A stretch of DNA of 64,000 nt from Caldicellulosiruptor morganii (lineage in GTDB: Bacteria; Bacillota; Thermoanaerobacteria; Caldicellulosiruptorales; Caldicellulosiruptoraceae). Location: contig NZ_CP113865.1 in NCBI RefSeq assembly GCF_026810225.1, positions 1,632,001-1,696,000 on the forward strand, in the 5' to 3' direction. Of this stretch, positions 16,716 through 63,885 are shown piece by piece. The translations under genes were made by a program, and so were the position numbers. Below the pieces are notes generated by a model. It saw only the letters and a program-made list of their open reading frames with translations, made no database searches and was not told the DNA's origin. Each line of letters starts with the position of its first letter. The stretch's first letter is position 1.

Positions 16716-16784
16716 TTTTATCACCTCCCAAAAATCAGTTTATTCCAAAAAAGCAGCAGATGTTAAATTCAAAAAAACTTTTAG

Positions 16785-18532: not shown

Positions 18533-18629
18533 TCTTTTCCCTCCTCCTGTTCTAAAAATCTTTTATACTCTATTAACTTCTGTGCGGGGAAGTTAATTGC
18601 AAGAGATGAAGACCAATCTGACATAATTT

Positions 18630-18658
18630 ATTTTAAGAGTAGAAAATTATATTGTCAA
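18630..18658 (-). promoter_or_regulatory. Near-consensus sigma-A promoter of rho
   Basis: On the minus strand TTGACA (18653-18658), a 17-base spacer and TAAAAT (18630-18635) stand about 100 bases upstream of the rho start, leaving a ~90-base leader that could allow autoregulation. Confidence 0.75.
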
Positions 18659-18699
18659 TAGCACAATTTTAAAATCTGAATCAAAATTTGTACAAAAAA

Positions 18700-18732
18700 T
18701 AAAAACCCGAATGTGTCTACACAGCATTCGGG
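18700..18732 (-). terminator. Terminator after galE
   Basis: CCCGAATG (18706-18713) / CATTCGGG (18725-18732) is followed by TTTTTATTTTTT on the minus strand, just after the galE stop. Confidence 0.88.
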
Positions 18733-18747
18733 CACACAGAAAAATTT

Positions 18748-39955: not shown

Positions 39956-40050
39956 TCCTATCACAACACACACTGAAACCTGCATGAGCGTTAAAATCCC
40001 GGATGGCAGCATTGCCGCAAACGTGCCTGCCAAAATTATTACAGCCAATG
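39881..40050 (-). pseudogene. C-terminal remnant of an MMPL/RND-family exporter
   Basis: The minus strand reads LAGTFAAMLPSGILTLMQ followed by two hydrophobic helices and the stop at 39881. This is typical of the last membrane helices of MMPL lipid/peptide exporters. It is out of frame with, and separated by a deletion from, the MMPL periplasmic-domain remnant just upstream. Confidence 0.6.
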
Positions 40051-40719
40051 TATCATTATGAGTCTCAAAGTCCTGAAATCTTTAAAATAGATGCTTCTCA
40101 AATCGTGATTGCTTGACGATATTCCGCCAACACCAAATTCAGTGAATTTTGCATCAACAAACTTCAAAGAGTTTTTCAATACCTTTTCAACACTGTCAAC
40201 AATATCTATTGCTTTGTTTGTATAAGGATTGGTGTCAAGGATAAGGATAATCTTTGTTATTTTTCTGCTCTTATCCATGTATGAATCCAGTGCTTTTTCA
40301 AAATTACTGCTTTTAAGAGCCCCGGGGGGCACATAGAATATATTTGTGTTTTTGTATCCTTCAAAATAATCTTTGAACTTTTGCATGGAATCTGTCATTT
40401 TTTCAAGTGCATCAGAAATTTGCAAAAGCATTGCCTTAAAACTATTCTGCCCATATTGCTTCAGAAAAAACTCATCTACAGTTTGACCTGGATTTACTTT
40501 ATCAAACAATCTCATAACTGCTACAGCTGAAACATTTGTGTGTTTTGCTATCTCTTTCATACTTGTTAAACTTCCAAGTTGACTTATAATATATGCTGCA
40601 AGTCTATTTGTCATCCTTTGAGATTTGCCTATAAAAGTTATGTGTTCAAAAAACTTCTTCCCACATGCTTTGCAGACATATCTTCTCTTTCTTATAATCA
40701 AATATATTTTCTTGCCCAT
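40039..40719 (-). pseudogene. Chimeric ORF: ISL3 transposase N-terminus fused to an MMPL exporter fragment
   Basis: The 226-residue frame has two unrelated halves. Residues 1 to ~93 are an ISL3 transposase N-terminus: zinc-ribbon RYVCKACGKKF, then a helix-turn-helix region SMKEIAKHTNVSAVAVMRLF. From ~94 it reads as an MMPL/RND extracytoplasmic domain (NIFYVPPGALKSSNFEKALD, GVGGISSSNHDL). The joint has no linker. It is most simply explained by IS insertion followed by deletion. Expression as a functional protein is unlikely. Confidence 0.7.
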
Positions 40720-46237: not shown

Positions 46238-48367
46238 TTACTCTATACTCATTCTTCGATTTATTATTTGGAAATTATTTGTGGTACCCGTGGTTATATT
46301 TGCTGTGGGCACAGGAGTTGGTGTTGGAACAATGGGCAAATTCAAATCATTGGTAATTTCATTTATGGTTTGCTCGCTCGGTCTGTCCCATATGATTTTT
46401 AGATTACCAGTGCTATTGACATTGAATCCTGTATCTTCAGCAAGTGAAATAAAAACACCATTTCTAATTATATTTCCAGAAGGACTCATATCAATACCCT
46501 GTGTTGTCATAAGTACGAGACTGTCACCACTTTGCAACGGAGGTATGCGACTTGAGTCGTAAAAATCGTTGTCATTGATTTGAGCAGTTGCATACCACTT
46601 GTATTCAGCAGGTGGCCCAGCAACAACCTGCTCTGCATGAAATTTACTCCAATCTCCACCAACTATGTTTCTAATCTCATCTTTTTTGCTTAATATCGAA
46701 TCCTGCCAGAATGTAAGTATTGAGCGAACATCATCAACAATTGCCGGAGCCGATAGAGATGTGTATGAGTAAGACAAACCCGAATCATTCTGAAATTTGC
46801 TGCGAATGGAAGATGGAAAACTGCTCAGAGCTGGTAAAATACTTCTGTATTTGATTCTATCACTGGTGGGCACATCAAGTGTGTTCAGTAAACCGCTGTT
46901 AAAATTCATTGACAAAGATTGGCCGGTAAATACTCCCAGTGTTACATAATTGTTACCTGTCATGTTAAGGTTTTCAGAATAAAACTCACCACTTGCCACT
47001 GTGGTATTTCCACTTCTATAGCCTCCGAAGAAAGATCTATTCGCAGCACTGCTACCACTGCCACCCCAGGTTATATTTTTAGCATACAGCTTTGCGCCAT
47101 TTTCTATATACAGATTTACATTCTGATTTTGCGCCGTTAGATTCTGGCAATATAGCTCTGCTCCAGGGCCCAAAATTACAGTCGCACCGTCTGAAATTGT
47201 CAGGTTATCAATACACCCTTTAGAATCAATTCTGATTTGAGTACCAGCTCCACTTACCTGAACTTTTTTGGCATATATCTCCTTTACAGTCATTTTTGAA
47301 CCAGCATCCCATATAATGCCTTCGTTTTGGTCATCAACAGCAAGAATATTGGCATCAAGTGTTATGCCACCGCTGTTTGCTCTAAAGTTACCTTTGGTAT
47401 AAAATATACCCGAAGCTTTGACGGTGGATGGCGATGACTGGTTTGTATTGAAAATAGTGTTGCCAAGCACAATTATGTTTGTTACATCAAGATAACAGGC
47501 TTCTCCAACAGTCAAGTCCTTTGCCGTGCCAATATTGCCACCCACAACAGTTAAATGTTTGTTCGCATTTATATTCCCATAGGAGAACATTGCATAGTCA
47601 AAAATATCAAATGGATTTGGAGTGGATACCGGAGTTGTTGTATTGACTGTTGCAAGATTTACAAAGTTGGTTGGATCTATTTCGGGAATTTTGAATTCTA
47701 CTCTTTCCACTCTTTTTGTATTTTTGCCTTTTTCCCTTGCTATTGTGCGTAAAATAAACATGTTACTGGATGAATCATAGTCTATTTTTATGTCTTCAAG
47801 TGAAAAATCTGATAAACGACTCTCAAAATCCGCTTTGAGGTAATCTTTGAGCTGAGAAAAGCTGCTTACAATGATTCCGCTGTTATCAACATTAAAACTG
47901 ACACCCGTCCCATTTGAAAATCCAAGAAATTCTAACAACTTCTTTGTCACATACTTTGTCATACCCTGCTTTATTCTTTCCTTTGCCTGATCATATGTGA
48001 TGGAAGGCGGCGAACCATACAAAGCAGTTCTGATTGTCTTTGGTTCATACATTACATCGGATGGTGATAGCTCGCCAATATTAGCTGAAATTACCATATT
48101 ATCATCGAAATAGTACTTTAAAACCGATCTTTTAATCTCTTCCAGCAATTGATTTAGATAAAACAATGTCTTTTCGGTTCCACTTTGAGAGGCATAAGCA
48201 GTTGTTGTTTTTTGAAATATCGAAACACTTCTGTTAAGCGAAGCCACAACTGCTGACATGCTTCCCAGCACCATGACAAACAAAATGCTTATAAGAATTA
48301 TTACTATAATAAGAGCTGAACCTCGATTAACAAAAAGCTTATTATTTCTTCTTTTCATTTTGTTCAC
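46238..48367 (-). CDS. PilX-like N-terminus with large beta-helix-like body (possible pilus-associated adhesin, tapirin-like)
   Basis: The 709-residue protein has an N-terminal PilX-type membrane segment (RGSALIIVIILISILFVMVLG). After an alpha/beta stretch (~50-230) comes a long run (~250-520) of short beta strands with polar turns, patterned like a right-handed beta-helix (e.g. GGITLDANILAVDD, DSKGCIDNLTISDGATVILG). It ends in a Pro/Thr-rich tail. The 4-base overlap with the pilV-like gene places it in the pilus operon. In Caldicellulosiruptor, tapirins with beta-helix cores that bind cellulose are encoded next to the pilus locus. Whether this is a tapirin relative is inference. Confidence 0.6.
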   Translation of the reverse strand: MNKMKRRNNKLFVNRGSALIIVIILISILFVMVLGSMSAVVASLNRSVSIFQKTTTAYASQSGTEKTLFYLNQLLEEIKRSVLKYYFDDNMVISANIGELSPSDVMYEPKTIRTALYGSPPSITYDQAKERIKQGMTKYVTKKLLEFLGFSNGTGVSFNVDNSGIIVSSFSQLKDYLKADFESRLSDFSLEDIKIDYDSSSNMFILRTIAREKGKNTKRVERVEFKIPEIDPTNFVNLATVNTTTPVSTPNPFDIFDYAMFSYGNINANKHLTVVGGNIGTAKDLTVGEACYLDVTNIIVLGNTIFNTNQSSPSTVKASGIFYTKGNFRANSGGITLDANILAVDDQNEGIIWDAGSKMTVKEIYAKKVQVSGAGTQIRIDSKGCIDNLTISDGATVILGPGAELYCQNLTAQNQNVNLYIENGAKLYAKNITWGGSGSSAANRSFFGGYRSGNTTVASGEFYSENLNMTGNNYVTLGVFTGQSLSMNFNSGLLNTLDVPTSDRIKYRSILPALSSFPSSIRSKFQNDSGLSYSYTSLSAPAIVDDVRSILTFWQDSILSKKDEIRNIVGGDWSKFHAEQVVAGPPAEYKWYATAQINDNDFYDSSRIPPLQSGDSLVLMTTQGIDMSPSGNIIRNGVFISLAEDTGFNVNSTGNLKIIWDRPSEQTINEITNDLNLPIVPTPTPVPTANITTGTTNNFQIINRRMSIE

Positions 48368-49137
48368 CTCCTCACCATAAATTTATACCTCTTCAAAACA
48401 ACACCTCTCTTTGAGTCTTTAATCTCCAGTGACACCTCTACAAGCTGATTGAAATAGGATGATGTGCTTGTGTCGAAAAACTCCACCCTGTCACTAATTG
48501 TAACAGGTTTTAAATAATGAAAATTATTGAACTCCCCCCAGTTTATTAATAATAGAGGATATCGACTTGTGCTGTTTTGTCTAAAAATACCATCCACGTT
48601 AACATCGAAACTGTTTGCAAGTTTGTTTTCAAGCCACAGGATATTAAAGCTCGGAAAATCAATTGAGCAAACCTGAAAGACACCCGCAAAGCTAAACTTA
48701 TATTCAGCTCTGTTTGAACCTTCATCGTAGTACACATCTAAATTTACAGGAGATGATACCACTGTTATGCCTGCGGGCTGATAAACAATATTTCCACCGC
48801 TGTACACCTTTTTGTATACAGTAAGTGAGTTCTGACTGTCACCTTCAACAATAATGTCATAATTCGATTTTGTTATATTGCATGAATAATTAACCTCATA
48901 TACATTGTTATCAAAATCATAGCCAATTGAGCCATTTGATGGATAAGCACTGGTTCTTACCTGTTCGTAAATTTTCTCCACCGCATCATTCAAAATTTGA
49001 TTTACATCCATTTCAACTTTTGCCTTTGATGTAACTTTTACAGACTGATTGATAGAAAATCCGATTGGAATAATAAACAGGGCAAACAAAGCAACAGCAA
49101 CAATTATCTCAACCAGAGAAAAACCTTTGAGTCTCAT
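48364..49137 (-). CDS. PilV-like pseudopilin
   Basis: About 257 residues begin MRLKG-FSLVE, a short prepilin leader with the class III cleavage site G|FSLVE followed by a 20-residue hydrophobic helix. The rest is a beta-rich minor-pilin domain. ATG 49137 is ~9 bases after AAGGTG; GTG 49149 is an in-frame alternative. It is processed by PilD and would sit at the pilus tip or prime assembly. It overlaps the PilX-like gene by 4 bases. Confidence 0.75.
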   Translation of the reverse strand: MRLKGFSLVEIIVAVALFALFIIPIGFSINQSVKVTSKAKVEMDVNQILNDAVEKIYEQVRTSAYPSNGSIGYDFDNNVYEVNYSCNITKSNYDIIVEGDSQNSLTVYKKVYSGGNIVYQPAGITVVSSPVNLDVYYDEGSNRAEYKFSFAGVFQVCSIDFPSFNILWLENKLANSFDVNVDGIFRQNSTSRYPLLLINWGEFNNFHYLKPVTISDRVEFFDTSTSSYFNQLVEVSLEIKDSKRGVVLKRYKFMVRR

Positions 49138-49194
49138 CACATCTATCACCTTACAATCTTATCTCTTTTTCAAACCCCAAAGACACTGATAAGC

Positions 49195-49836
49195 CTAATT
49201 AAACAAATTGCTTTTGCCGCTTTTAATCCCTTTGCTAAACGGAAACCAGCTTCGTGGCAAACTCTGAGGGTCGGTAAAACCATAGAATTTTATGCGGACA
49301 TTGGCTGTAAGTTTACCTGAAGTCTTGTTAATAGAAAATGCCTCCACTGTAAACAAAGGTTTGAACTTCTGCTGTTCATCCAAAAGCTGTTTTATCTTAT
49401 CATATGTTACCTCTTCCCAGGTCTGCCTTGTTAGATAAAAATATGGATAATATTCTTCACCCAGCTCTTCTTTTTTTGCACTCTCCAAATCGATTTTCTG
49501 TCTTGGATCAAAGATATATGACTTTGTGTCTACTTTTATCCTTTGAAGAAGGTACTGAAGATCCATCACACAAAATTTCTCATCCTGGTTGGGTGGTATG
49601 ACATCCTTCAACTTGTTATACTCAACCCTGGCTTTTTCAATCTCCTTCTTTTTTGAATTGTACTGTGCTATTACCATATTCAAACGATCCAATTCATTGC
49701 TGAGTAGTTCATATTCCTGTTTTTTTGCAGCAATTTTCTCTGAAAAGTTTGTATAAATAAAATAGTAAAATACAAACCCCAGTAGAAGAACTGCCAGAAG
49801 GGATAGCAACCATTTCTCTCTATTTGAAAGTCTCAT
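49195..49836 (-). CDS. pilO: Type IV pilus alignment-complex protein PilO-like
   Basis: About 213 residues have one membrane helix (~10-30), a coiled-coil segment (KQEYELLSNELDRLNMVIAQ), and a ferredoxin-like C-terminal domain. ATG 49836 follows AAGGTGG; an in-frame ATG at 49857 is less likely. Sequence similarity within this family is low, so the call rests on architecture and on following pilM and pilN. Confidence 0.72.
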   Translation of the reverse strand: MRLSNREKWLLSLLAVLLLGFVFYYFIYTNFSEKIAAKKQEYELLSNELDRLNMVIAQYNSKKKEIEKARVEYNKLKDVIPPNQDEKFCVMDLQYLLQRIKVDTKSYIFDPRQKIDLESAKKEELGEEYYPYFYLTRQTWEEVTYDKIKQLLDEQQKFKPLFTVEAFSINKTSGKLTANVRIKFYGFTDPQSLPRSWFPFSKGIKSGKSNLFN

Positions 49837-49888
49837 AATACACCACCTTTTCCTCATTTATTATTGCTGATAATCCATTCACTTGATT

Positions 49889-50422
49889 TTATTTTGCAAT
49901 TTCAGCCATTACGACAGCATTCAAAGTCCCTTCATTTTCGCTTGCACCGTTAAATGTTATATTCGTAAAGTGTGAATCATTTTGAACATTGTAAACAAAC
50001 TGAACAACACTTTCCAACTTTTTGGCTGCAAGATTGCATGTCATTTTTCCATCCTCAATCTGCAGAGATTCCATGGAAACATCCACAGGCAGAAGTTTTT
50101 CAACAGTCAACAAGACATCTTTTAGCTTCCTGTTTTCTGCAAATTTTTCGTCTATAAATGCCTTTTTAATCTCAAAAAGTTTTACAATAAACATCTCCCT
50201 TTTGATTTTATCAACTGTGATTCTTTTGGTTTGAACTTCGGTTTTGAGTGTATCCACTTTTATGCTATACGTAATTGACTGTGTGATCAGTATCGCACTG
50301 AAAATCAAAAAAAACGCAAAAGCACCAATTAGAAATAATAAATGCCCTATTCCTCCGCTGTCATCTTTCTGAAATTGTTTGTAATATGCTTCCAGTAAAT
50401 TTATATCCTTTACCGGTGGCAT
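49889..50422 (-). CDS. pilN: Type IV pilus assembly protein PilN-like
   Basis: About 177 residues have the conserved cytoplasmic N-terminal motif DINLLEAYYKQF, which in PilN binds PilM, one membrane helix (~30-52), a coiled coil and a small alpha/beta domain. The ATG 50422 lies after AGGAGGTG. It joins the PilMNO inner-membrane platform. Confidence 0.78.
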   Translation of the reverse strand: MPPVKDINLLEAYYKQFQKDDSGGIGHLLFLIGAFAFFLIFSAILITQSITYSIKVDTLKTEVQTKRITVDKIKREMFIVKLFEIKKAFIDEKFAENRKLKDVLLTVEKLLPVDVSMESLQIEDGKMTCNLAAKKLESVVQFVYNVQNDSHFTNITFNGASENEGTLNAVVMAEIAK

Positions 50423-50457
50423 TGCATCATTCACCTCCTCTTTCACTCACAAAATTA

Positions 50458-51411
50458 TTACACAATTCCACTGATCCCGGCAATATATGTAAGTATTTCT
50501 CCACGCTGAATTTTAGAGGATTTTACACATTTTAGCTCTCCCAGCAATTCCACCTCAATGTTCAGCCTTTTTTGGATAATATAACTTACATCTATGTGCT
50601 GACAAACTTCACCCGTCAGGTATAACTTGTTTACCTCTCTAATAGACTCCTCGCGTGTTCGCAGAAAGTCATAGAATTTCAATATACTTTCAGCAATCGT
50701 ATCTTCTATTACACTGAACTCATACTCATTTCCTTCCTTTTCTGAAAACATTTCTTCAAGCTGAATTATGGGGAACAGCTTTGTTATCAAAAGCTTCCCT
50801 TCTGATGCAACAGATATACTAACCCCATTTCTGCTTATATTTGCCACCAGAAACGGCGCTGTTTGATCATCACCGCGAATATTTTTCTCCAGTTTCAAGA
50901 GATTAACAACCGAGTTTGGCTCAATATCTATTTTGCCAATTTTAATTCCAGCATTTCTGAAAGCATTTATCAACCCCTCAATAATCTGTCGCTGAACGCC
51001 CACCATGAGAACTTTTTGTTTTTTTGTATTCCCTTCAGATACAACTTTAAGCTGTTTATAGTCCAAAACATAGTTATTTAAATTTATTGGGAAGTATTGC
51101 TTTGCCTCGTTTCTGATAAGGCTGTACATTTGGTTTTCCTTTACAATTGGAACTTCTATTTCTCGAATTAAAATATTGGAAATACCACATAGCACAACTC
51201 TGACATTGTTTTTTGGAAATTCTTTACCCTTGAAAATTTCTCTCAGCTGGATTTGCAAGAAAACATCGTCAACTTTTGTGTCTTCTTTTATAACAGGGTC
51301 ATTAAAATTTTTTTCATGCCACTTAACTGGATAAATGTAATCTCCCTTTATACTCCCAACAACCACTCTCACGTAGTTTTTTCCAACTTCAACAACAACT
51401 TTATCGCTCAT
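50458..51411 (-). CDS. pilM: Type IV pilus assembly protein PilM
   Basis: About 317 residues with an actin-like/FtsA fold: N-terminal phosphate-binding strand VVVEVGKNYVRVVVGS, then LIRNEAKQYFPINL and LYLTGEVCQHIDV. It is the cytoplasmic partner of PilN. ATG 51411 follows GAGGTG by 7 bases, making it preferable to the in-frame start at 51432. It is 11 bases upstream of pilN and 22 bases after the pseudopilin gene. Confidence 0.82.
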   Translation of the reverse strand: MSDKVVVEVGKNYVRVVVGSIKGDYIYPVKWHEKNFNDPVIKEDTKVDDVFLQIQLREIFKGKEFPKNNVRVVLCGISNILIREIEVPIVKENQMYSLIRNEAKQYFPINLNNYVLDYKQLKVVSEGNTKKQKVLMVGVQRQIIEGLINAFRNAGIKIGKIDIEPNSVVNLLKLEKNIRGDDQTAPFLVANISRNGVSISVASEGKLLITKLFPIIQLEEMFSEKEGNEYEFSVIEDTIAESILKFYDFLRTREESIREVNKLYLTGEVCQHIDVSYIIQKRLNIEVELLGELKCVKSSKIQRGEILTYIAGISGIV

Positions 51412-51453
51412 TTCATTCACCTCAATAAACAAACTTTGAAAATAAAAGCTGTT

Positions 51454-51987
51454 TTATTCAGTTCTTAAAACATGCGATACTTTATATTTGCGCTTAATAT
51501 CCATCGAAGCACGTCTTGTTACAAAAACTTCATATTCTACTTCAACCTTTTTTATAGTTCCAAAAGCAATCATTCTACTATCAAAAAACGTAACCCTGCC
51601 GGTTAAAATCTGGTAGGGGCTGCTACCGGTTTTTTCTATTACGACTGACTTGCTTGCACTTACCCATGTAACTTTTACATGATACGTTCCAGCAACAGCT
51701 CCGGATGCAGCAGGTTGAGCTTCATATACATCCATTTCAACAATTTTATCCCCTGCTGATGAAACAGAAACATTTATACTTCTTTGATCTGCCATCTCAA
51801 ACCATTGCCTCAGAGAGTCGCTGAGTCGCTTTGCCTCACCTTCAATCCTGGCTGTGTTGTAGGTTTCAACTGAGATTTTATAGTTCTGGATAAAAAAAGA
51901 ATACAGAGCAGCTAAAATTATACCCAGTATTGCAACACCTATTATCATTTCAACCAGAGTAAGACCTCTTAATCTTGCTTTTATCAT
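51454..51987 (-). CDS. PilW/GspJ-like pseudopilin
   Basis: The 177-residue protein has prepilin motif RLRG|LTLVEMIIG, a hydrophobic N-terminal helix and a beta-rich body. Leu at +1 replaces the usual Phe, seen in some minor pilins. It overlaps the preceding pseudopilin gene by 4 bases. Confidence 0.78.
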   Translation of the reverse strand: MIKARLRGLTLVEMIIGVAILGIILAALYSFFIQNYKISVETYNTARIEGEAKRLSDSLRQWFEMADQRSINVSVSSAGDKIVEMDVYEAQPAASGAVAGTYHVKVTWVSASKSVVIEKTGSSPYQILTGRVTFFDSRMIAFGTIKKVEVEYEVFVTRRASMDIKRKYKVSHVLRTE

Positions 51988-52535
51988 TTAACTTCTACGC
52001 TCCCCGGTGGTGAGGTCTTTATTAAAACCGTCTTTCTATACCGCCCACCACCAAAATTTTTTATATTAACCACCAGTTCCTTTGCAGATGTAAAGTACAC
52101 ACTCTGCCCGGCAGGTGAACCAGTAAATCTCCACAAATTGCCATCATTGCCATAGCATATATATGTCCAAACAGGACCTGAACCGGTGACAATCAGATCA
52201 TTTGGTGTAACAATCTCCACTCTGCTGCTTTTTAGTTCGTCCAAAACTACTTCTGAACCGCCCTGCCGTTTTACAAGCTGAATCTGAAAATAATAATTTC
52301 CACTTGAATCAGGAACAATATAGTTGTTAATCTTTATGTAGTAGGTTGTATAGTTCATCTCTTTGTCTTCTAAATCATACAACTTCTGAAACATATCGGC
52401 AATTTGATTTGCCGCACTCTGCACCTCAGCCCTGTTTTTCCCGGATAAATAATTCGGTATTGCAATGCTCAGAATTATTGCCAGAATAGCAAGAACAATT
52501 ACCATCTCAACAAGGGAAAAACCCTTCCTTTTCAT
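51984..52535 (-). CDS. GspH/FimT-like pseudopilin
   Basis: About 183 residues start MKRKG|FSLVEMVIVLAILA, a classical class III prepilin leader. The C-terminal part is a beta-rich GspH-like domain ending FGGGRYRKTVLIK. ATG 52535 is preferred because it gives a short leader; ATG 52559 is in frame and overlaps comFB by 4 bases. Confidence 0.82.
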   Translation of the reverse strand: MKRKGFSLVEMVIVLAILAIILSIAIPNYLSGKNRAEVQSAANQIADMFQKLYDLEDKEMNYTTYYIKINNYIVPDSSGNYYFQIQLVKRQGGSEVVLDELKSSRVEIVTPNDLIVTGSGPVWTYICYGNDGNLWRFTGSPAGQSVYFTSAKELVVNIKNFGGGRYRKTVLIKTSPPGSVEVK

Positions 52536-52555
52536 GTTATACATACCCTCTTTAA

Positions 52556-52852
52556 TCATTTATCTCTGAACTCTTTATCATGCTTCTGATTGTTCTTTAC
52601 TATAAACATAGCAGCCGCCAAAGCTGCTATAACGTCAACTCTAAACTGAGATTCCATACTCTTTAACATTGAGTAAATCTTACCTTCCTCTGTAACATAA
52701 TACCTTGGGGGAAGCCTGTTGAGTGCCAGTGCTATTACATCGGCTCTGCACTTTTCACATGTACAAACCGCATCTTTAAAGTCCTCAATAACAACATCAT
52801 AGTACTTTTCAACTATTTCCTCCATTGCATTCTTAACCTTATACTTCATCAT
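52556..52852 (-). CDS. comFB: ComFB-family protein (late competence protein/cyclic-dinucleotide receptor family)
   Basis: The 98-residue protein has a helical N-terminus (KNAMEEIVEKYYD) and the family core CTCEKCRADVIALALN followed by LPPRYYVTEEG, so a zinc-type cysteine cluster and the ComFB fold are visible. Cyanobacterial ComFB proteins were reported as cyclic-dinucleotide receptors linked to type IV pili and natural competence; that role here is inference. It lies between pilD and pseudopilin genes and overlaps its neighbour by 4 bases. Confidence 0.85.
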   Translation of the reverse strand: MMKYKVKNAMEEIVEKYYDVVIEDFKDAVCTCEKCRADVIALALNRLPPRYYVTEEGKIYSMLKSMESQFRVDVIAALAAAMFIVKNNQKHDKEFRDK

Positions 52853-52859
52853 GTATTAC

Positions 52860-53660
52860 CTACCCTATCATGTATGTTTTATATAGCTCTAAAATCCTTT
52901 CACCAAAAACCATGGTTAAATAAATTCCAAGTGAAATGAAAGGTCCAAAGGGAATTGCTTTTTTTACCGAATCCTTACCTTCCAATTTGTGAGTCGCCGC
53001 TATATAAATTATCCCGTATATCGCAGCGCTTATAAAAGACAGCATATTGCATAAAATTGCTTTGCCAAAACTAAAACCAAAACCGCCTGCCAGCAGCAGT
53101 AGCACATCACCCAGCCCCATTGCTCTTTCACGTGTTATAAAATATATCATAAAAACAAGCAACGCAGAATAAACCGAGCCCATAAATAAACCCATTATCT
53201 GCAATGCACCGGGCTGTTTGAGCCTCAATACTTCAAACACAGCTTTCAAAACAAGAAGAAAAATTATGCTCAATGTGGATATTTCAAAGGTATTAAAATC
53301 AACAGCACCGATGTATATCAAAAGGCAACCTATGATAAAAAACAAAACAGCAAGCAATATGCTTTGAAAAAAATAAAAGTTAAACGCCATAATAGCATTT
53401 AAGCCTGTCAAAAGTTCCACCAGAGGATACTGTATACTGATTTTCTCCCTGCAGCCACGACATCTGCCTTTTTGGATCAAATAGCTCAAAACAGGAATAA
53501 GCTCAAACCAACCCAGTCTTTTTCCGCACCTCGGACATCTGCTTCCTGGTGCTATTATGGATTCCCCTCTGGGAAGTCTGTAAATACAAACATTCAAAAA
53601 ACTGCCAATCACAAGCCCCATGACAAATGCAAAAATCCCAAACATTCCAAAACCTCTCAA
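52860..53660 (-). CDS. pilD: Prepilin peptidase/N-methyltransferase PilD
   Basis: The 266-residue membrane protein begins with the methyltransferase region GSFLNVCIYRLPRG and two CxxC pairs (RCPRCGKR, RCRGCREK). The peptidase aspartates are in GAVDFNTFEI and the GxGD motif GLGDVLLLLAGG. It removes prepilin leaders after glycine and methylates the new N-terminus. All pilins and pseudopilins in this locus are expected substrates. Confidence 0.93.
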   Translation of the reverse strand: MRGFGMFGIFAFVMGLVIGSFLNVCIYRLPRGESIIAPGSRCPRCGKRLGWFELIPVLSYLIQKGRCRGCREKISIQYPLVELLTGLNAIMAFNFYFFQSILLAVLFFIIGCLLIYIGAVDFNTFEISTLSIIFLLVLKAVFEVLRLKQPGALQIMGLFMGSVYSALLVFMIYFITRERAMGLGDVLLLLAGGFGFSFGKAILCNMLSFISAAIYGIIYIAATHKLEGKDSVKKAIPFGPFISLGIYLTMVFGERILELYKTYMIG

Positions 53661-53783
53661 AATCCATTTCCCCTGACTTTTTCTTTTTTCAAAATATTTT
53701 TATAAAATCAAGGGGCACCTTTTACACCAACCCTCATCACGCAATCATTTCATAAAAACCTCACCATGCTACCCACTGTTGCA

Positions 53784-54242
53784 TTATTTGTATCTAGCAT
53801 AATCCGGTGTTGGATAGAGCATAACTTCTGTGTTTCCATCACTGGTCTTTGTATAAATCTCTATCTTCTCATCAGAAGGGGTAAATTTCAAATAATAATC
53901 TTGGTTGGAAAGTCTTGTTTTGAAAGAGAAATTATCACCAAGATATTTTTTTACAACATCTTGGGCACTCTCAGCACTACCACCACCTGGTGGTGTAAGG
54001 TTCACACTTGCCAAAGCAGTTGCATTGGAAGTTGACGGAATAACATAGCCATCGGCTATTGCCTGCAACAGAGCAGTTGCAATCTGCTTTGCACTTGATG
54101 CATCTGATGTTGCTCTTGCCCTGTTAATCTGCTTCATGACCTGCGGAACAATTATTGCAATCAATATTGCAATAATAGCCATAACAATAACCATTTCAAT
54201 CAATGTAAAACCTCTGTTTTTTCCTGTTAATCTGCTTAACAA
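53784..54242 (-). CDS. pilA: Type IV pilin (second)
   Basis: The 152-residue protein has an 11-residue leader ending NRG|FTLIE, the conserved Glu5, and a long hydrophobic helix ending in IIVPQVMKQINRAR. The soluble domain is small and has a Gly/Pro stretch (TPPGGGSAES). It may be the major pilin because of its compact size and gap from downstream genes. About 120 bases without a clear terminator follow. Confidence 0.85.
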   Translation of the reverse strand: MLSRLTGKNRGFTLIEMVIVMAIIAILIAIIVPQVMKQINRARATSDASSAKQIATALLQAIADGYVIPSTSNATALASVNLTPPGGGSAESAQDVVKKYLGDNFSFKTRLSNQDYYLKFTPSDEKIEIYTKTSDGNTEVMLYPTPDYARYK

Positions 54243-54272
54243 GATAAGCCATCATATTAAATCACCCTCCCT

Positions 54273-54695
54273 TTATTTATAGCTTTTATCAAAGTTGGGA
54301 TAAAGCTCCCAAAAGTTTGTGCCATCTCCGGCATAAACCTTTAAAACACTGTCAAACCGGTAATAAAAACTGTAATTCCTGTTTAGGGTTGGCTTTGGGG
54401 TACCCCCTGAAATATAGTCACTCAGTTTTATAAAGTGATTTGCATCCAGATTTATCACATCCCCAGTTATTTCATGAAAATTGTTATCTAAAATTATATC
54501 TGAAAGCAAAGTGTTTTGTTCAATCTCCCACAGATAGAACGACTGTGCTATTTCTTTTGCCGCCTTGACATCTGCCACAACCTTAGCCCGGTTTAAACTT
54601 TTCATAACCTGCGGAAACACAATTGCTCCAAGCACAGCCACAATAACCATAACAACCACAAGCTCAATAAGCGTAAAACCTTTTTCAGGCTTCAT
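54273..54695 (-). CDS. Type IV pilin (first)
   Basis: The 140-residue protein has a 6-residue leader MKPEKG|FTLIELVVVM and the same helix plan as the next gene (FPQVMKSLNRAK), but a different soluble domain. Two adjacent pilins derive from gene duplication and may be major and minor subunits. It lies between pilC and the second pilin. Confidence 0.85.
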   Translation of the reverse strand: MKPEKGFTLIELVVVMVIVAVLGAIVFPQVMKSLNRAKVVADVKAAKEIAQSFYLWEIEQNTLLSDIILDNNFHEITGDVINLDANHFIKLSDYISGGTPKPTLNRNYSFYYRFDSVLKVYAGDGTNFWELYPNFDKSYK

Positions 54696-54748: not shown

Positions 54749-55963
54749 TTACTGCACACCTATGCTTCCGTACATCTTGAACATCGGCAGGTAAATTGAT
54801 ACCATCAAGAATCCTATCATTACAGCTAACAGTACAATCATCAATGGCTCAAAAATTGTGGTAAGCCTTGTTACCTGATTCTCCACCTCATTTTCAAAGT
54901 AATCAGCAGCTTTTGTTAGCATTAGCTCAACATTGCCACTTTCCTCACCTGTTCTTATCATAATCTCAAGCAGTCGGGGAAATACAGGAACCTGACTGAT
55001 GGGGTCACTCAGCCCCTGCCCGCTTTCTACCATTTCAATTATCTTCTCAAATTCCTTTTCAATGTATTTATTCGTCAAAACATTCCTTGTAGTCTCCAGA
55101 GCTATTACAAGGCTCACACCGGCAGAAAGCATGGTCCCCAGAGTTCTTGCAAATCTGACAACTATCTGCCCCAGAATCACATTCCCTACCAGTGGAATTT
55201 TTAATTTGAACCTGTCAATATAATATCCTCCCTTTTCGCTGGCTTTTGCAAAATAGTAGGCAAAAATCAGAGCTAAAACTACCAGAACTATTATTATCAA
55301 GTTTGAAGTTAAAAATTCACTGACTCCTATCAACAGTCTGGTTGGTGCTGGAAGGTCAACATTCAGCTCCTTAAATATCTTAACAAATGTAGGTATAACA
55401 ATCAGCAACATCAAAACTGCAACCGCTAAACCTATCAATATGACAAGCACGGGGTAAATCAATGCATTGACTATTTTCTGCCTGAGCTTCATTTCCTTTT
55501 CAAAGTGGGTTGCCATTCTGTCAAACGCTTCATCAAGAGAACCCGACATCTCACCGGCTGCAATGGTGTTAATAAGAATTGCCGGAAATCTTCCTTTTTT
55601 TTCTTCCAGTGCTGCCGATAAAACAGTCCCACCTTTAACCTTCTGACTTATATCTTCGATATCTTTCCCGAGATTTTTTCCTTTGAATTGCTCGGCAACA
55701 ACCTCCAGAGCTGTCACAAGCGGAATACCCGACATCAGCATTGTGGCCATTTGTCTGCAAAAAATGGATAAATCTTTTAAAGCTATCTTTTTTCTAAATG
55801 ATGGTGCTATTTCCTTTTGCAAAACTCCTTTTTCTCTTAAATCAACTACATAAAGATTTCTCCTTTTCAGACTTTCAGAAGCGCTTTCAGGAGTATCAGC
55901 AATCAATGACCCTTTTATCTCTTTACCCGTCTCATCAAGAGCAGTAAATATGTATTCGGGCAT
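54749..55963 (-). CDS. pilC: Type IV pilus inner-membrane platform protein PilC
   Basis: The 404-residue protein has two GspF domains (~70-190 and ~270-395) each followed by membrane helices, with typical motifs FCRQMATMLMSGIPLV and FARTLGTMLSAGVSLV. It links the ATPases PilB and PilT to the growing pilus. Length is normal. Confidence 0.94.
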   Translation of the reverse strand: MPEYIFTALDETGKEIKGSLIADTPESASESLKRRNLYVVDLREKGVLQKEIAPSFRKKIALKDLSIFCRQMATMLMSGIPLVTALEVVAEQFKGKNLGKDIEDISQKVKGGTVLSAALEEKKGRFPAILINTIAAGEMSGSLDEAFDRMATHFEKEMKLRQKIVNALIYPVLVILIGLAVAVLMLLIVIPTFVKIFKELNVDLPAPTRLLIGVSEFLTSNLIIIVLVVLALIFAYYFAKASEKGGYYIDRFKLKIPLVGNVILGQIVVRFARTLGTMLSAGVSLVIALETTRNVLTNKYIEKEFEKIIEMVESGQGLSDPISQVPVFPRLLEIMIRTGEESGNVELMLTKAADYFENEVENQVTRLTTIFEPLMIVLLAVMIGFLMVSIYLPMFKMYGSIGVQ

Positions 55964-56012: not shown

Positions 56013-57071
56013 TCAAGCAGACAATAACTTTTCCATATAGTCGAAATCAGTTGCATGAGCATATGCATCATCTCTTGTAATAAGCCCTCGTTTGTAAAGT
56101 TCTATCAAAGACTGTTCCATAGTTATCATACCAACCCGCTGATGTGTTTGAATTATGGACGGTATTTGATAAGTCTTGTTCTCTCTAATAAGATTTCTTA
56201 TAGCAGGATTACAAATCATTACCTCTGTTGCAACAACTCGACCTTTTCCATCGCGTCTTGTCAAAAGTTGCTGTGAAACAACACCCTGAAGAACAGTAGA
56301 TAGCTGAACTCTAATCTGCTGCTGTTGATGTGGAGGAAACACGTCAATTATACGATCTATGGTCTTTGCAGCACCAACCGTATGCAGAGTTGAAAACACA
56401 ACGTGACCGGTCTCAGCAGCTGTTAGCGCAATAGAGATGGTTTCCAGATCTCTCATCTCACCAACCAGGATAACATCTGGATCTTCACGCAGTGCTGCTC
56501 TCAGAGCATTAGCAAAGCTTTTTGTATCATTTCCTATTTCCCTCTGATTGATTATACTTTTTTTATGTTTATGCAAATACTCAATAGGATCTTCCAGTGT
56601 TATAATATGTAAATCTCTTTCACTATTCATTATATCAATTAACGAAGCCAGAGTTGTTGATTTACCCGAGCCCGTGGGACCTGTTACCAGTACAAGCCCT
56701 TTATTTAATTTTGTAAATTCTTTTAAAACAGCAGGAAGACCCAGACTTTCAAAAGCTGGTATATTGGCGGTAATCACTCTGAAAGCTATTGAATATGAAC
56801 CACGTTGCTTGTAAGCATTTACTCTGAATCTGCTTACCCCTCTTATACTGTAAGAAAAGTCCAGCTCACCCACCTCTTCAAGTTTGCTGAATTGCTCGGG
56901 AGTCAGAATCTGTCGCACATATTCCTCAACCATCTCGGCGGTGAGATTATCTTCGTCTTCCATTTTCACAAGTTTGCCGTGTATTCGAAAAACAGGTGGC
57001 ACCCCCGGTGTAATATGAATGTCAGACGCGTTTTTTAGAAATGCTTCTGTCAGAATCTCATTTATATGCAT
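56013..57071 (-). CDS. pilT: Pilus retraction ATPase PilT
   Basis: The 352-residue hexameric ATPase has Walker A GPTGSGKSTTLA, Asp box DPIEYLH, Walker B DVILVGEMRD, and the PilT hallmark AIRNLIRENK near residue 290. It depolymerises pili, providing twitching or tension. Its presence argues that these pili are dynamic rather than static secretion pseudopili. Confidence 0.95.
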   Translation of the reverse strand: MHINEILTEAFLKNASDIHITPGVPPVFRIHGKLVKMEDEDNLTAEMVEEYVRQILTPEQFSKLEEVGELDFSYSIRGVSRFRVNAYKQRGSYSIAFRVITANIPAFESLGLPAVLKEFTKLNKGLVLVTGPTGSGKSTTLASLIDIMNSERDLHIITLEDPIEYLHKHKKSIINQREIGNDTKSFANALRAALREDPDVILVGEMRDLETISIALTAAETGHVVFSTLHTVGAAKTIDRIIDVFPPHQQQQIRVQLSTVLQGVVSQQLLTRRDGKGRVVATEVMICNPAIRNLIRENKTYQIPSIIQTHQRVGMITMEQSLIELYKRGLITRDDAYAHATDFDYMEKLLSA

Positions 57072-57107: not shown

Positions 57108-58826
57108 TTATGATTCTATCGCATAGGTAACTTTTAAAAACTCCTCCACTGAAGTAATCCCCGATAAAACCCTTTCTCTACATGCTTCTTTCAGTGTCTT
57201 CATCCCTTCTTTTATGGCCAATTCTTTTATTTCTTCACTGCTCACGTCCTTTTTGTTTATCAGCTTTCTCAATTCCCTCGTTACCAACAATATCTCATAT
57301 ATACCTGTTCGTCCAAAATAACCTTTACCCTCACAAATATGACAGCCATCCTTCTTATATAATTTTACCACATTTTCAGATTCAATATCAAGAAGCATTT
57401 TTTCTTCCTCATTTGCTTCATATTCTACCTTGCAGTACGGGCAAAGTTTTCGAACAAGACGCTGAGAAATTACCCCGACCAGTGAAGAGCTGATGAGAAA
57501 GTTATCAATCCCCATATCAACCAGGCGTGTAACAGCACTTGCTGCATCATTTGTATGAATGGTGGATAGCACCAAATGCCCTGTAATAGCAGCTCTTATT
57601 GCCATATCAGCCGTCTCTTTATCTCGAATCTCACCGATCATAATTATATCCGGGTCCTGCCTCAAAATTGAACGAAGAGCGGCTGCAAACGTAAGACCTG
57701 CCTTTACGTTCACTTCAACCTGATTGATGCCTTCAATTGTACTCTCAACAGGGTCCTCAACAGTTATAATGTTTCTTAATCCTGTATTAAGTTCATTCAA
57801 AATGGTGTACAAAGTTGTTGACTTACCACTTCCAGTAGGTCCACATACAAGTATAATTCCATGCGGTGCTGCTATTAATTTTTCATACTTTTCCAAATCA
57901 TCCTTTGTCAAACCCAGTTCAGTTTTGGATTTCACAAAAGCACTTTTATCTATAACTCTCACAACTATCTTTTCCCCAAAAACTGTTGGCAACGAAGAAA
58001 TTCTCATATCATAAATCCTGTCATAAAGGATATAGGTGGTTCTTCCATCCTGAGGTACCCTTTTCTCAGCAATATCCATGTTTCCAACAACTTTTATTCT
58101 CGCAGTTAAAGAAGGTAAAATTGAAATGTCAAGCTTTAAAACATCATATAAAACTCCATCAATTCTATAGCGAACTTTCACATGGTTTTCAAAAGGCTCA
58201 ATATGAATATCACTTGCTCTTGAAGTTATTGCCTGCTCAAAAATGGAATTTACAAGCCGCACAACAGGCCCCTCTGTGCCGTCCTCTAACCCAAGCTGAA
58301 ACCTGGGAGTAATTTGAACTCTCCGTCCAGCCGTCTCTCTCTCAGAAGTTTCTTTCTGCAGTTCTTCCACCGCTTTCAATGTTTCCTGCTTTCCATAGTA
58401 TCTTTCAATAGCTCTTATTATATCCGATGCTCTTGCAATTCTTGGCACTACCCTTCTCCCTGAATAAATTTCAACATCTTCAATAGCGAAAATATTCAAA
58501 GGATCTGCCATAGCTACAATTAAATTGTCCTCTTCGTCAAAACCCACCGGAATAAGTGTATGTCTTCTGGCTAACTGCTCTGACACAAAATCTATTGCTT
58601 TGGGATCTATTGGATAAATATCCAATTTAATGTGAGGTATCCCCAGTTGAAATTCAAGCAGTTCTACCAGTTCGTCTTCACTTATTATTCCTTTTTCAAC
58701 CAGAATCTCACCAAGCTTCTTATTGGTCTCTTTTTGCAACTGTAATATTTCTTCCAACTGCTGAGGAGTTATTATTTTTGATTCAACCAGAATATCTCCA
58801 ATACGTTTTCTTTCCCGTGGCATCAA
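57108..58826 (-). CDS. pilB: Pilus extension ATPase PilB
   Basis: The 572-residue protein has an N-terminal MshEN/GspE-N domain (~5-150), of the type that can bind cyclic-di-GMP in some PilB/MshE proteins, then the ATPase core with GPTGSGKSTTLYTI, Walker B DIIMIGEIRD, and the C-terminal zinc site with CPYC and CHIC pairs. It powers pilus assembly. Its ATG overlaps the stop of the upstream REC-fusion gene by 4 bases, suggesting coupled expression. Confidence 0.95.
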   Translation of the reverse strand: MMPRERKRIGDILVESKIITPQQLEEILQLQKETNKKLGEILVEKGIISEDELVELLEFQLGIPHIKLDIYPIDPKAIDFVSEQLARRHTLIPVGFDEEDNLIVAMADPLNIFAIEDVEIYSGRRVVPRIARASDIIRAIERYYGKQETLKAVEELQKETSERETAGRRVQITPRFQLGLEDGTEGPVVRLVNSIFEQAITSRASDIHIEPFENHVKVRYRIDGVLYDVLKLDISILPSLTARIKVVGNMDIAEKRVPQDGRTTYILYDRIYDMRISSLPTVFGEKIVVRVIDKSAFVKSKTELGLTKDDLEKYEKLIAAPHGIILVCGPTGSGKSTTLYTILNELNTGLRNIITVEDPVESTIEGINQVEVNVKAGLTFAAALRSILRQDPDIIMIGEIRDKETADMAIRAAITGHLVLSTIHTNDAASAVTRLVDMGIDNFLISSSLVGVISQRLVRKLCPYCKVEYEANEEEKMLLDIESENVVKLYKKDGCHICEGKGYFGRTGIYEILLVTRELRKLINKKDVSSEEIKELAIKEGMKTLKEACRERVLSGITSVEEFLKVTYAIES

Positions 58827-61800
58827 ATACTCTCTCCTTTAACGAAAATATAAATCTCATCTTTTTCTTTCAGTATATCATTTAAGGAAATACCTCTTTT
58901 CAAAGCCAAATATAGTTTCCATACTTCTCCAGACAAGTCATTGTCCAGGGCAAAATAATTCAAAATATTGCCATTCAACACAATGGAATCACTTGTTATC
59001 ATAGCTTCTGTTTTGGGAATATAGAATATTATCAGATTATTCTCTGCAATAATATTTTCCTCTACCTTTTCTACATTCAAATTCCTTAAAACAATTTCCT
59101 CTTCATTTATTATAATCTCACATTTTTCAACATCAAATCTAACAATCAGATTGCTTCCTTCCTGAATGATATTTATCTTCGAATACACTTTCTCAATCTC
59201 CAAAACAACATCTTCACCAATCATTTCAATTTCTATCTTCCTGACAATGCCTCTTTCAAAGTTATCAGGTAATTTTACTCCATCCCCCAAAACAACTTCA
59301 CCCAAGTTCAAAACCAAATGACTATCTTTTGTAAAACTTTCCTTCAAGCCAACATTATTAACATTAAAGTTCAAAATTAACTCAAACCTCAATGCTCCCT
59401 GGAAAATTTTTATTTCCTGAAGCACAGGACACTTCTCGATGGTAAATTCAACAGAAGAACTGTCTTTTCTGTTCAGGCGAACAATCGTGTTGGCTGTAAA
59501 TGCAACTCTGTATCCATCTTCTTTAATAATTTGATATTTTCTAATGACATAATTTTTCTCTAAATATGTTATACCCGGTCTTAAATATATGTCTTTCCTT
59601 TTTATTTGTAAGTTAACAGTTTGTTCCTCAATGTCATTATTAAGTTCAACTTCCTGCCACTTTAAAGCAGGAACTTTAACACTGACTTTATCTTCATCCT
59701 CCTCAATCACTATTTCAACCGGCAACAATCTGAATTCAATTTCAAGACCAGCATCTATCCTTTCAATTTCAAAATCTTCAACTGACGTCTTAACTTTAAC
59801 ATAAGCATTATAATTATCTTCATCAAACAGAATCCATTCGATACAATGATCTGTAAAATCTATGTGTCTACTTTCAATTTTACCCAAAGAAGCTTCTTTA
59901 AAAGTTATATTTAATATGCTTTCACTTTTTTCATAATTCCACTCAAAATTTAACTCTCCTTCTCCTTTGATCTTTAAATATGCCTTACCCTCTTTTTCTT
60001 CATACTCAAATGAATTAACCTTATTGAGTTTCCTTACAGGAACTATATAAATGTCTGTAGAAGTTTTATCCCTGGATAATTCAACTCTGTATTTACACTT
60101 TCCTTTTAAACCAATCTTGCCTTCATAACCTTCTGATATTTTGTTCACTTCTATGTAACTAACTGTTTCACCTTCGATGGTATCTATCATTGGATCTTTT
60201 ATTAAATTTACAAACCTATTTTTTACTTTAAAATATAACTCGTTTGTTTCTGCTAAAAATTCAACCATCAGCTCATCGGGTTTAATATTTTGAAAAACAA
60301 CACTTTCCTGGAATATATTAAACAAAATAAACGCTCTGTTTGGTTTCAAGGAAATTAGATTCTTGCCCTTCTGTTTGATAAAGTTAACTTTTTTAATAGG
60401 AGTGTAAATAATAATACATGCCTGATTTTTTTCACTATCATAAACAACTTTCAAACTTTCGATTGGTTCTTCATTAAATGTAAATTCTTTGCTCAACAAT
60501 TCCTCTGAAACCATAAAACCATTCAGAAACACATAAACAATATTTTTGTCCTGTTCCTGTTCAATATCTGCCGAAACATTGGAGGAGTTAGTAATTAATT
60601 CAAGCAACGTTTCTTCAGGCGTGTAAAATACATCAATGTCTTTTAGAATTTTAATTTCATTAAATCTTATACCCAGCGAAGTTCTGCCTTCAATTAGCTC
60701 ATAACTTGCTTCGGTTTTGAGTAAAATATTAACTATGTAGTCATTACCTTTTCTGGAGACTACATACCTGTCTATAATGGGATCTTCTACAATCTCCTCA
60801 CCTTCCTGAAAGGTTGCTCCACTTGATACTATTTCAACAACATAATTTTTTTCATTAATCTTATTGATTTTTACACTATTGGGCGATACATTGTCAATCA
60901 TAAGGAATCTCTGAGTCTTGTTGTAGACAACAAGACCCTTGCTTTTTCTGAATATGATAATAAGTCCATCATCCAACTCACGAATGTCAAATTTTCTAAC
61001 ATTAGTCTCTATTGAAATGTATAAATTGCCTTCAACTTCATTTATTTTTACTCTCTCAATGACTCCACTGTTTAATTCATATGTTTCTCTAATTGAAGCC
61101 ATCTTGTGACAATCTTCTATGGTAACCATAATGCCGTTTCTAATCTTCATTCTTCCTATACTATAATTAACCTCTTTTTTGTTAAAATACAGGTTAACTC
61201 TCTCTTCATCATTTATCTGTTCAAACTTAATATCGGTCAAAATGCTGTATTTTGGCGAAGATTCAATCTCAACAGGTGATGTTGAAACATCTTTGTGTTC
61301 CGTCTCTTCTATCTCTTCATGTTTTATTTCTTCTTGCGTACCAAATACATCTCTTGGAATATTTAGAATAACACTGCTGCTTTCTTGTTCATTTACCGGT
61401 ACTGTTTCAATCTTCTGTTCAAGCCCAAAACCATCAAATTGTTGAGAAAGCTGTTGTTGTAAATCTACTTCTTCTTTTTCCTCCGGTATTGTCCCTTTCT
61501 TTTTTCTTTCCAAACTTTTCAGCACTTCCTCCACTTTTTCGCGTGAAAATGGCTTAGTAATATAGCCAGCTGCTCCTTCTCTCAACGCCTCCTTAACAAT
61601 GTCGTGAGTGTTTATAGCTGATATCATAATAACATCTGCAGAAGGATTGATACTCTTGATTTTCCTCAATAATTCAATACCACTCATATCCGGTAGCGTA
61701 ATGTCCAATGTCACAACGTCCGGTGAAAACTCTTTAAGAATCTTTAATGCTTCACTCCCATTTGATGCTTCCCTAACAAGTTCAATACCCAACTCCTGCA

Positions 61801-61858
61801 ATATTCCCTTCAGCACTTTTCTTATAAACACAGCATCGTCCACCATTAAAATTTTCAT
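58823..61858 (-). CDS. Response-regulator receiver domain fused to ~850 residues of repeated beta domains; function unknown
   Basis: Residues 1 to ~118 form a CheY-like receiver: acidic pair in MVDDAVFIRK, phospho-acceptor Asp in TLDITLPDMSG, and conserved Lys in TKPFSREK. An acidic linker (~120-200) follows, then ~800 residues of beta-strand-rich repeats ~85-90 residues long with lines such as IRELDDGLIIIFRK and IERIDAGLEIEFRLL, resembling AMIN-type domains. No signal peptide or membrane helix is seen, so it should be cytoplasmic, unlike ordinary AMIN proteins. No DNA-binding or enzymatic output domain was found. It sits directly before pilB. Confidence 0.75.
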   Translation of the reverse strand: MKILMVDDAVFIRKVLKGILQELGIELVREASNGSEALKILKEFSPDVVTLDITLPDMSGIELLRKIKSINPSADVIMISAINTHDIVKEALREGAAGYITKPFSREKVEEVLKSLERKKKGTIPEEKEEVDLQQQLSQQFDGFGLEQKIETVPVNEQESSSVILNIPRDVFGTQEEIKHEEIEETEHKDVSTSPVEIESSPKYSILTDIKFEQINDEERVNLYFNKKEVNYSIGRMKIRNGIMVTIEDCHKMASIRETYELNSGVIERVKINEVEGNLYISIETNVRKFDIRELDDGLIIIFRKSKGLVVYNKTQRFLMIDNVSPNSVKINKINEKNYVVEIVSSGATFQEGEEIVEDPIIDRYVVSRKGNDYIVNILLKTEASYELIEGRTSLGIRFNEIKILKDIDVFYTPEETLLELITNSSNVSADIEQEQDKNIVYVFLNGFMVSEELLSKEFTFNEEPIESLKVVYDSEKNQACIIIYTPIKKVNFIKQKGKNLISLKPNRAFILFNIFQESVVFQNIKPDELMVEFLAETNELYFKVKNRFVNLIKDPMIDTIEGETVSYIEVNKISEGYEGKIGLKGKCKYRVELSRDKTSTDIYIVPVRKLNKVNSFEYEEKEGKAYLKIKGEGELNFEWNYEKSESILNITFKEASLGKIESRHIDFTDHCIEWILFDEDNYNAYVKVKTSVEDFEIERIDAGLEIEFRLLPVEIVIEEDEDKVSVKVPALKWQEVELNNDIEEQTVNLQIKRKDIYLRPGITYLEKNYVIRKYQIIKEDGYRVAFTANTIVRLNRKDSSSVEFTIEKCPVLQEIKIFQGALRFELILNFNVNNVGLKESFTKDSHLVLNLGEVVLGDGVKLPDNFERGIVRKIEIEMIGEDVVLEIEKVYSKINIIQEGSNLIVRFDVEKCEIIINEEEIVLRNLNVEKVEENIIAENNLIIFYIPKTEAMITSDSIVLNGNILNYFALDNDLSGEVWKLYLALKRGISLNDILKEKDEIYIFVKGESI

Positions 61859-63597: not shown

Positions 63598-63885
63598 TTG
63601 CATAAGTCAGGGACAAAATCCCATAAATGTAATAAATATAGTAATATTACAACTAAGCTACATGATTATCACAAACAGAAGGTAAAAGACATACCTATAA
63701 TGGGCAAGAAAACATATTTGATTATAAGAAAGAGAATATATGTCTGCTATGTTTACTGGACTTTAGAAAATTTGAGAAAAATAGTACAAAAGGAATTAGG
63801 AAGTAATTTGAGAAAGTATTTTAAGAGGAGCAGGAAATTATTATTGAAGAGTTATGAAGAACTTGAACCTGAGCAAAGAGAATAA
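63598..63885 (+). pseudogene. ISL3 transposase remnant with internal deletion
   Basis: The frame joins an ISL3 N-terminal piece (HDYHKQKVKDIPIMGKK, RIYVC) directly to a C-terminal piece (WTLENLRKIVQKELG, LLLKSYEELEPEQRE). The catalytic centre is missing, and the N-terminal CxxC pair has become KCNKYSN. Further C-terminal sequence with stops continues to the window edge. Homologous to the fragment at 40430-40915. Confidence 0.65.

Follow-up and report, generated by a model that had tools for sequence, protein, structure and literature searches.

A candidate receiver-AMIN regulator encoded beside pilB and inherited with the pilus genes of Caldicellulosiruptor

The fusion gene and the pilus locus

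The window analysed here is a stretch of 64,000 nucleotides of the Caldicellulosiruptor morganii genome. On its minus strand, at 58823-61858, it carries a single intact open reading frame of 1011 amino acids, which joins an N-terminal CheY-type receiver to a long tail of AMIN-type domains and which we call here the fusion gene. Directly downstream and on the same strand lies a type IV pilus locus: first pilB (57108..58823), coding for the assembly ATPase, in which both the MshEN domain and its c-di-GMP motif score above the curated cut-offs, in agreement with an earlier note on this DNA which had described a PilB of the MshEN type; then pilT (56013..57071) and pilC (54749..55963), both assigned from sequence; and finally the remaining pilus genes, pilin-like genes included (46238..54695), among which are those of the prepilin peptidase PilD (52860-53660), of PilM (50458-51432), of PilN (49889-50446) and of a PilO/T2SM-like protein (49195-49857). 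A ComFB-like gene of 98 amino acids (52556-52852, minus strand), whose homologue in genome G001 matches PF10719 (E 1.1e-23), shares this locus with the MshEN-type PilB and may provide a second c-di-GMP-related input to the pilus machine. The gene of a GH10-CBM3-GH5 multidomain glycosidase adjoins the pilus locus, and transposase-like remnants at 40039-40719 (minus strand) and 63598-63885 (plus strand) flank the cellulase and pilus region, which is in keeping with mobility of this stretch. Past the right end of the window (L069:14637-17555) lie three tandem, closely similar genes, coding for secreted-looking proteins of 252 amino acids and of unknown function. PADLOC matched nothing.

The pilB start which agrees with the pilB genes of other genomes is an ATG overlapping the stop codon of the fusion gene by 1 base (TGATG, in the context TTTGATG); the 4-base overlap reported earlier is obtained only with a TTG start. 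The ribosome-binding sequence of pilB, AAAGGAGAG, falls within the last codons of the fusion gene. In the other genomes the two genes are 20-50 bp apart, so that the overlap is peculiar to the genome of the window. This means that translational coupling, which had been proposed from the overlap, is plausible in this genome but is not a conserved trait of the gene pair.

The receiver occupies residues 1-118 (61505..61858, minus strand). It matches PF00072 over residues 3-113 (E 9.9e-29), CheY proteins come nearest to it among solved structures (E 1e-28 to 1e-26), and the acidic pair D7/D8, D52, S80 and K102 are all present. The phospho-acceptor Asp52, in TLDITLPDMSG (codon at 61703..61705, minus strand), is invariant in the 12 homologues of the fusion, and all 12 of them retain the phosphorylation site, where position 80 is Ser or Thr, at receiver identities as low as 50%. 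The CheY-like domain is hence intact, as the earlier note had read it. Some single receivers serve as docking modules, and one can imagine that the fusion supports the pilus base as a structural scaffold, with a receiver that only docks and stays unphosphorylated in vivo. This would fit with the fact that no kinase gene is linked to the fusion at its loci, but it leaves the conservation of the phosphorylation residues over such a range of divergence unexplained, and we consider it very unlikely. Two Hpt/CheA genes are found in the genome, and the stand-alone CheY genes adjoining both of them are among the closest paralogues that the receiver has in this genome. The second of these CheA-linked CheY genes was recovered in ten genomes; it is not among the matches listed for G001 and G008, which both have the fusion, and it is present in G006, which does not have it. 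We infer that the receiver is probably phosphorylated by a CheA-type kinase.

An acidic linker (residues 119-205; 61244..61504, minus strand) separates the receiver from the tail. It evolves fast, with 10-25% identity between the cassette types described below, and it is nearly missing from the homologue of the sister genus (genome G012). The reading frame is intact in 12 of 12 homologues, with lengths of 1011-1143 amino acids, and dN/dS amounts to 0.01-0.15 in the receiver, 0.14-0.29 in the tail and, for most pairs, 0.4-0.7 in the linker, compared to 0.02-0.05 in PilB. The 12 intact frames and the low dN/dS of receiver and tail show that the frame is not due to chance. The fusion protein is under purifying selection, and the dN/dS of its tail is several-fold above that of PilB.

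The highest Kyte-Doolittle mean over 19 residues is 1.09 for the whole fusion protein, which thus has no signal peptide and no membrane helix, compared to 2.64 at the N-terminus of the genome's own secreted AMIN amidase (2944..5079, minus strand; signal peptide, Cu-amine-oxidase-N-like region, AMIN and Amidase_3). With a receiver at its N-terminus and with neither export signal nor membrane segment, the protein is predicted to be cytoplasmic. The claim that the tail has no export signal therefore stands, and the membrane or secreted topology which had been named beforehand as contrary to a cytoplasmic role is absent. All described AMIN proteins known to us are extracytoplasmic (PMC10653833, PMC12403147), which could suggest that the fusion leaves the cell by a route that needs no signal peptide and works on the wall as they do. 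The N-terminal receiver, its conserved phosphorylation residues and its low dN/dS speak against such an export, as does the lack of any hydrophobic segment in the fusion when its true secreted paralogue has a clear one; we find this explanation hardly credible.

Anatomy and origin of the AMIN tail

When a profile of ten homologous tails is aligned with itself, offsets of about 198, 407 and 606 columns appear (E 1.5e-27 over 586 columns). By this self-alignment the tail, a beta region of roughly 800 residues, is made of four units in tandem, each about 200 residues long and all on the minus strand: unit 1, residues 206-403 (60650..61243); unit 2, residues 404-611 (60026..60649); unit 3, residues 612-811 (59426..60025); and unit 4, residues 812-1006 (58841..59425). 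A division into ten repeats of about 85 amino acids was rejected, as the period is about 200.

We modelled unit 1 with AlphaFold2 from an alignment restricted to the four units of the window protein itself, and obtained a mean pLDDT of 74 and a pTM of 0.57. In its first half (1-100) the model resembles the E. coli AmiC AMIN domain (4bin; rmsd 2.2 over 98 residues, Z 11.9) as well as that of PilQ (4av2; Z 11.6), and in its second half (100-198) it resembles the B2/AMIN domain of PilQ (4aqz; Z 11.1, rmsd 2.4 over 97 residues), while the next structural matches, to small heat-shock and other proteins, have a Z of 7.3 or lower. The top Foldseek match is PilQ within the pilus machine model 3jc8 (E 1.3e-4). 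Structure prediction and Foldseek, the check suggested in the earlier note, thus both return AMIN folds for unit 1, at Z 11-12 for the AmiC and PilQ comparisons. In unit 4 (pLDDT 68), the first half (1-100) matches AmiC 4bin even better (Z 13.5, rmsd 2.0 over 99 residues); the second half is poorly modelled, with low confidence. Altogether the matches of these three half-units to AmiC and PilQ span Z 10-13.5.

Units 2 and 3 are taken as AMIN pairs through their profile homology, for unit 2 with unit 1. In the G012 homologue, Pfam AMIN is found above the cut-off (23.3 bits for a gathering score of 20.5) at the place matching unit 2; in several members of the genus it stays below the threshold. 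The region of unit 3 aligns with an AMIN profile (E 3.9e-5, probability 70%, which is the best value for the whole tail) and, in a profile alignment of one tail unit, with the beta region of the secreted AMIN-amidase (E 4.4e-4). Single half-units aligned by hhalign with our home-made AMIN profile gave weak scores, which were left out of the domain count. The window protein itself, searched with Pfam by HMMER up to E 10, matches the receiver only, with no secretin, PATAN, Amidase_3 or AMIN match; the AMIN assignment hence rests on profiles, homologues and fold. Searched over the 398 genomes of our phylum sample, the tail profile matched only two places outside the genus (E 3.7e-7 and 6.1e-7), both of them single AMIN domains in secreted AMIN-amidases.

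Our best count is eight AMIN-type domains in four pairs, each unit apparently consisting of two AMIN folds; three of the domains are shown by fold (both halves of unit 1 and the first half of unit 4) and the remainder by the profile homology of the units. The earlier description of about ten tandem AMIN-like repeats was therefore right as to the type of domain, but not as to number and period. The known single-domain family which might have explained the tail away was not seen: the protein is a receiver followed by a multi-domain AMIN tail.

The secreted AMIN amidase of the window is likely a relative of this tail, as judged from their alignment. The homologue in G012 consists of receiver, AMIN repeats and an Amidase_3 domain (E 2.9e-35), and this last part aligns with the secreted AMIN-amidase of the family at E 4.3e-21 (profile alignment). 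It keeps two His and the first Glu, which we take to be the zinc ligands of Amidase_3, and it has a Gln (LLLQIGHGTN) in place of the last Glu of the secreted enzyme (LVEVAFGTN), presumably the catalytic one. This replacement means that the amidase domain of G012 is probably inactive. The existence of an amidase-bearing homologue suggests that a secreted AMIN amidase was brought into the cytoplasm as the partner of a receiver, and the AMIN array probably descends from such an enzyme that lost its export signal. In the scenario we favour, whose order is deduced from one outgroup genome, a secreted AMIN-amidase would have gained a receiver and lost its signal peptide, then lost catalysis, and finally lost Amidase_3 and been relocated beside pilB. 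The G012 form, with its altered amidase, would be an apparent intermediate and renders this origin testable. The fusion thus shares with AMIN-Amidase_3 amidases of the AmiC type the AMIN fold (Z 11.9-13.5 to 4bin) and, in G012, the Amidase_3 domain, but differs from them by its missing signal peptide, its N-terminal receiver, its eight AMIN domains and an Amidase_3 which looks inactive in G012 and is lost in the genus of the window.

Another reading is that of a cytoplasmic cell-wall sensor, in which the AMIN array would bind precursors of peptidoglycan or muropeptides from recycling, with the receiver adding a two-component signal, in order to tune wall processes or the passage of the pilus through the wall, the pilus locus being only the present location of the gene. 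Both AmiC and PilQ do bind peptidoglycan through their AMIN domains (PMC10653833, PMC12403147), the amidase fold of G012, which keeps the zinc-ligand positions with the catalytic Glu replaced, looks like a binding-only domain, and the G012 homologue is two genes from another Amidase_3 gene. The window copy is however devoid of any Pfam AMIN match, and within the genus the gene is strictly co-inherited with the pilus genes (see below), so that we regard the sensor as distinctly unlikely.

Distribution and inheritance with the pilus cassette

The fusion gene is present in 11 of the 12 Caldicellulosiruptor genomes, being missing only from G006, and in G012, the sole other genus sampled from the family. 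It is absent from all 24 other genomes of the class, and no receiver-AMIN fusion was found in the phylum sample beyond the genus and G012; among the 30 best-scoring AMIN genes of the phylum, none has a receiver. A scan of named genomes with the full protein returned only the receivers of unrelated proteins, as the receiver outweighed the rest of this query, so that the scan tells nothing about how widely the tail occurs, and in a plasmid collection the best matches fell in the amidase part. Judging by titles, by the opening of abstracts and by term counts, none of the papers searched describes a protein that unites AMIN domains with a response regulator.

In the genus, the fusion immediately precedes pilB in all 11 copies, in the same orientation and at -4 to 50 bp, while the gene upstream of the fusion varies between genomes (aroE, IS elements, glycosyltransferase genes or a PPIase gene). 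The neighbourhood with pilB, which the earlier note had wished to see searched for in other genomes, and whose complete absence would have refuted its reading, is hence the rule in the genus, the sister genus being different. In G006, aroE and pilB adjoin with nothing between them and the pilus locus is full, which shows that the fusion is accessory and that the pilus does not need it. The order aroE-pilB is found in G012 too, where the fusion homologue sits between galE and rho, on the same contig as pilB and about 500 kb from it; the galE-rho interval of the window (18533..18747) contains no insert, the two genes being direct neighbours. A short Amidase_3 protein with no evident signal peptide is encoded after rho in both genera (L066:14218-14778; 16143-16724 in the window, minus strand), and its gene belongs to the neighbourhood that harbours the fusion in G012.

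The pairwise identities of receiver and tail follow those of PilB, PilT and PilC (r 0.94-0.98), but not those of Rho (r 0.03 and 0.09) nor of the secreted amidase (0.04 and 0.13), G012 being left out. The trees of the fusion and of PilB have in common the groups formed by G001, G003, G004, G007, G008 and G011, by G002, G005, G009 and G010, and by G000 on its own, whereas in the Rho tree G005, G008 and G011 join G000, separate from the remaining eight. In AU tests the cassette groups are rejected on Rho (p 5e-69 and 1e-47), and the Rho-type group of G000, G005, G008 and G011 is rejected by the fusion (p 2e-39) and by PilB (p 2e-5); these are quick trees under a simple model and the groups had been seen before they were tested, the likelihood gaps being large (300-550 units). 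We concluded from this co-divergence and from the clade conflict with Rho that the fusion belongs to a pilus cassette exchanged within the genus. Since linked genes co-diverge whatever their function, this establishes membership of the cassette and not contact between the products. The PilB proteins of G006 and G012, which have no fusion beside them, form a group of their own (100 SH-aLRT), hence the adjacency of fusion and pilB may have arisen once. The full pilus locus of G006 (L068) is of a divergent type, as if the whole pilus cassette had been replaced.

The same data can be read as hitch-hiking: the fusion would regulate another process, for instance a general chemosensory output, and would merely travel in the pilus cassette. 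Genes exchanged as a block co-diverge in any case, the neighbours in G012 are different, and G006 has an intact pilus locus without the gene. Yet adjacency to pilB, on the same strand and at close spacing, is kept by all 11 genus copies over three divergent cassette types, despite the insertions and rearrangements which changed the upstream neighbour; we therefore think hitch-hiking rather unlikely. That the gene has, within the genus, some role related to the pilus is in our view quite probable.

A possible role at the base of the pilus

AMIN is known as an extracytoplasmic module for localisation and peptidoglycan binding, which serves outside the membrane to position pilus and division machines (PMC10653833, PMC12403147). 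Eight AMIN domains that follow an intact receiver and carry no export signal imply a cytoplasmic setting and another ligand, most simply a protein. Our main reading is that the fusion is a phosphorylation-controlled, cytoplasmic and accessory scaffold or response regulator of the type IV pilus, to which we give about an even chance (0.5). In this mechanism the eight AMIN domains would form a rod or platform, tethered to the receiver through the flexible acidic linker, and phosphorylation would alter the way in which this platform is offered to the pilus machine at its cytoplasmic base. The likeliest target would be the assembly motor PilB, encoded by the next gene, and pilus extension would be favoured or blocked, or the motor placed. 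The steps of phosphorylation, kinase identity, direction of the effect and contact with PilB are all conjectural; that PilB itself is the partner is a tentative proposal, somewhat less probable than the scaffold role. Of the phospho-gated pilus scaffold imagined in the earlier note, two elements are supported: the cytoplasmic receiver-AMIN fusion, and its inheritance with the pilus gene set, which speaks against a mere chance neighbourhood. Against a role at the pilus motor stand the G012 homologue, far from pilB, and the pilus locus of G006 without the gene; the fast divergence of the tail (28-37% identity between types, compared to 74-84% for PilB), which is unlike what a tightly constrained PilB-binding surface would be expected to show, also counts against it.

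To our knowledge no AMIN domain binds a pilus ATPase. Receivers acting on the pilus machine are known: the single-domain CheY proteins of the PilG/PilH type do so and have no output domain, so that they have the receiver in common with the fusion but not the output domain. The cyanobacterial PATAN-CheY regulators (PixE, PixG, LsiR) come closer, as they combine a CheY-type receiver with a domain which does not bind DNA and act on type IV pili; PixE was reported to bind PilB1 (PMC7690835), which provides a precedent for a receiver protein that controls a pilus motor directly. The fusion differs from them by its output, made of AMIN repeats with no PATAN, by its phylum, and by a PilB contact which is here only supposed. 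With the PilQ secretins it shares the AMIN fold (4aqz, 4av2, 3jc8), and PilQ works itself in type IV pilus machines; but PilQ is an outer-membrane secretin with periplasmic AMIN domains, whereas the fusion has neither secretin domain nor export signal and is predicted to be cytoplasmic.

If the reading is true, a part of a cell-wall enzyme has been reused for signalling. In its widest form, it would state that an AMIN-repeat amidase became an intracellular, phosphorylation-controlled scaffold of the pilus motor, in which cytoplasmic AMIN domains bind protein, and thus founded a new class of regulator swapped together with its cognate motor; we put this forward as possible, though on balance doubtful. 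The thermophiles concerned depend on surface attachment to plant fibre, and the exchange of the gene with the pilus cassette, together with its absence from one species, offers natural variants for a clean genetic test. One pair of loci (L071 and L073, G001 versus G004) shows a synonymous divergence of 0.68 in the tail for only 0.29 in the receiver and 0.21 in PilB, which suggests that the tail was swapped by recombination within otherwise similar cassettes.
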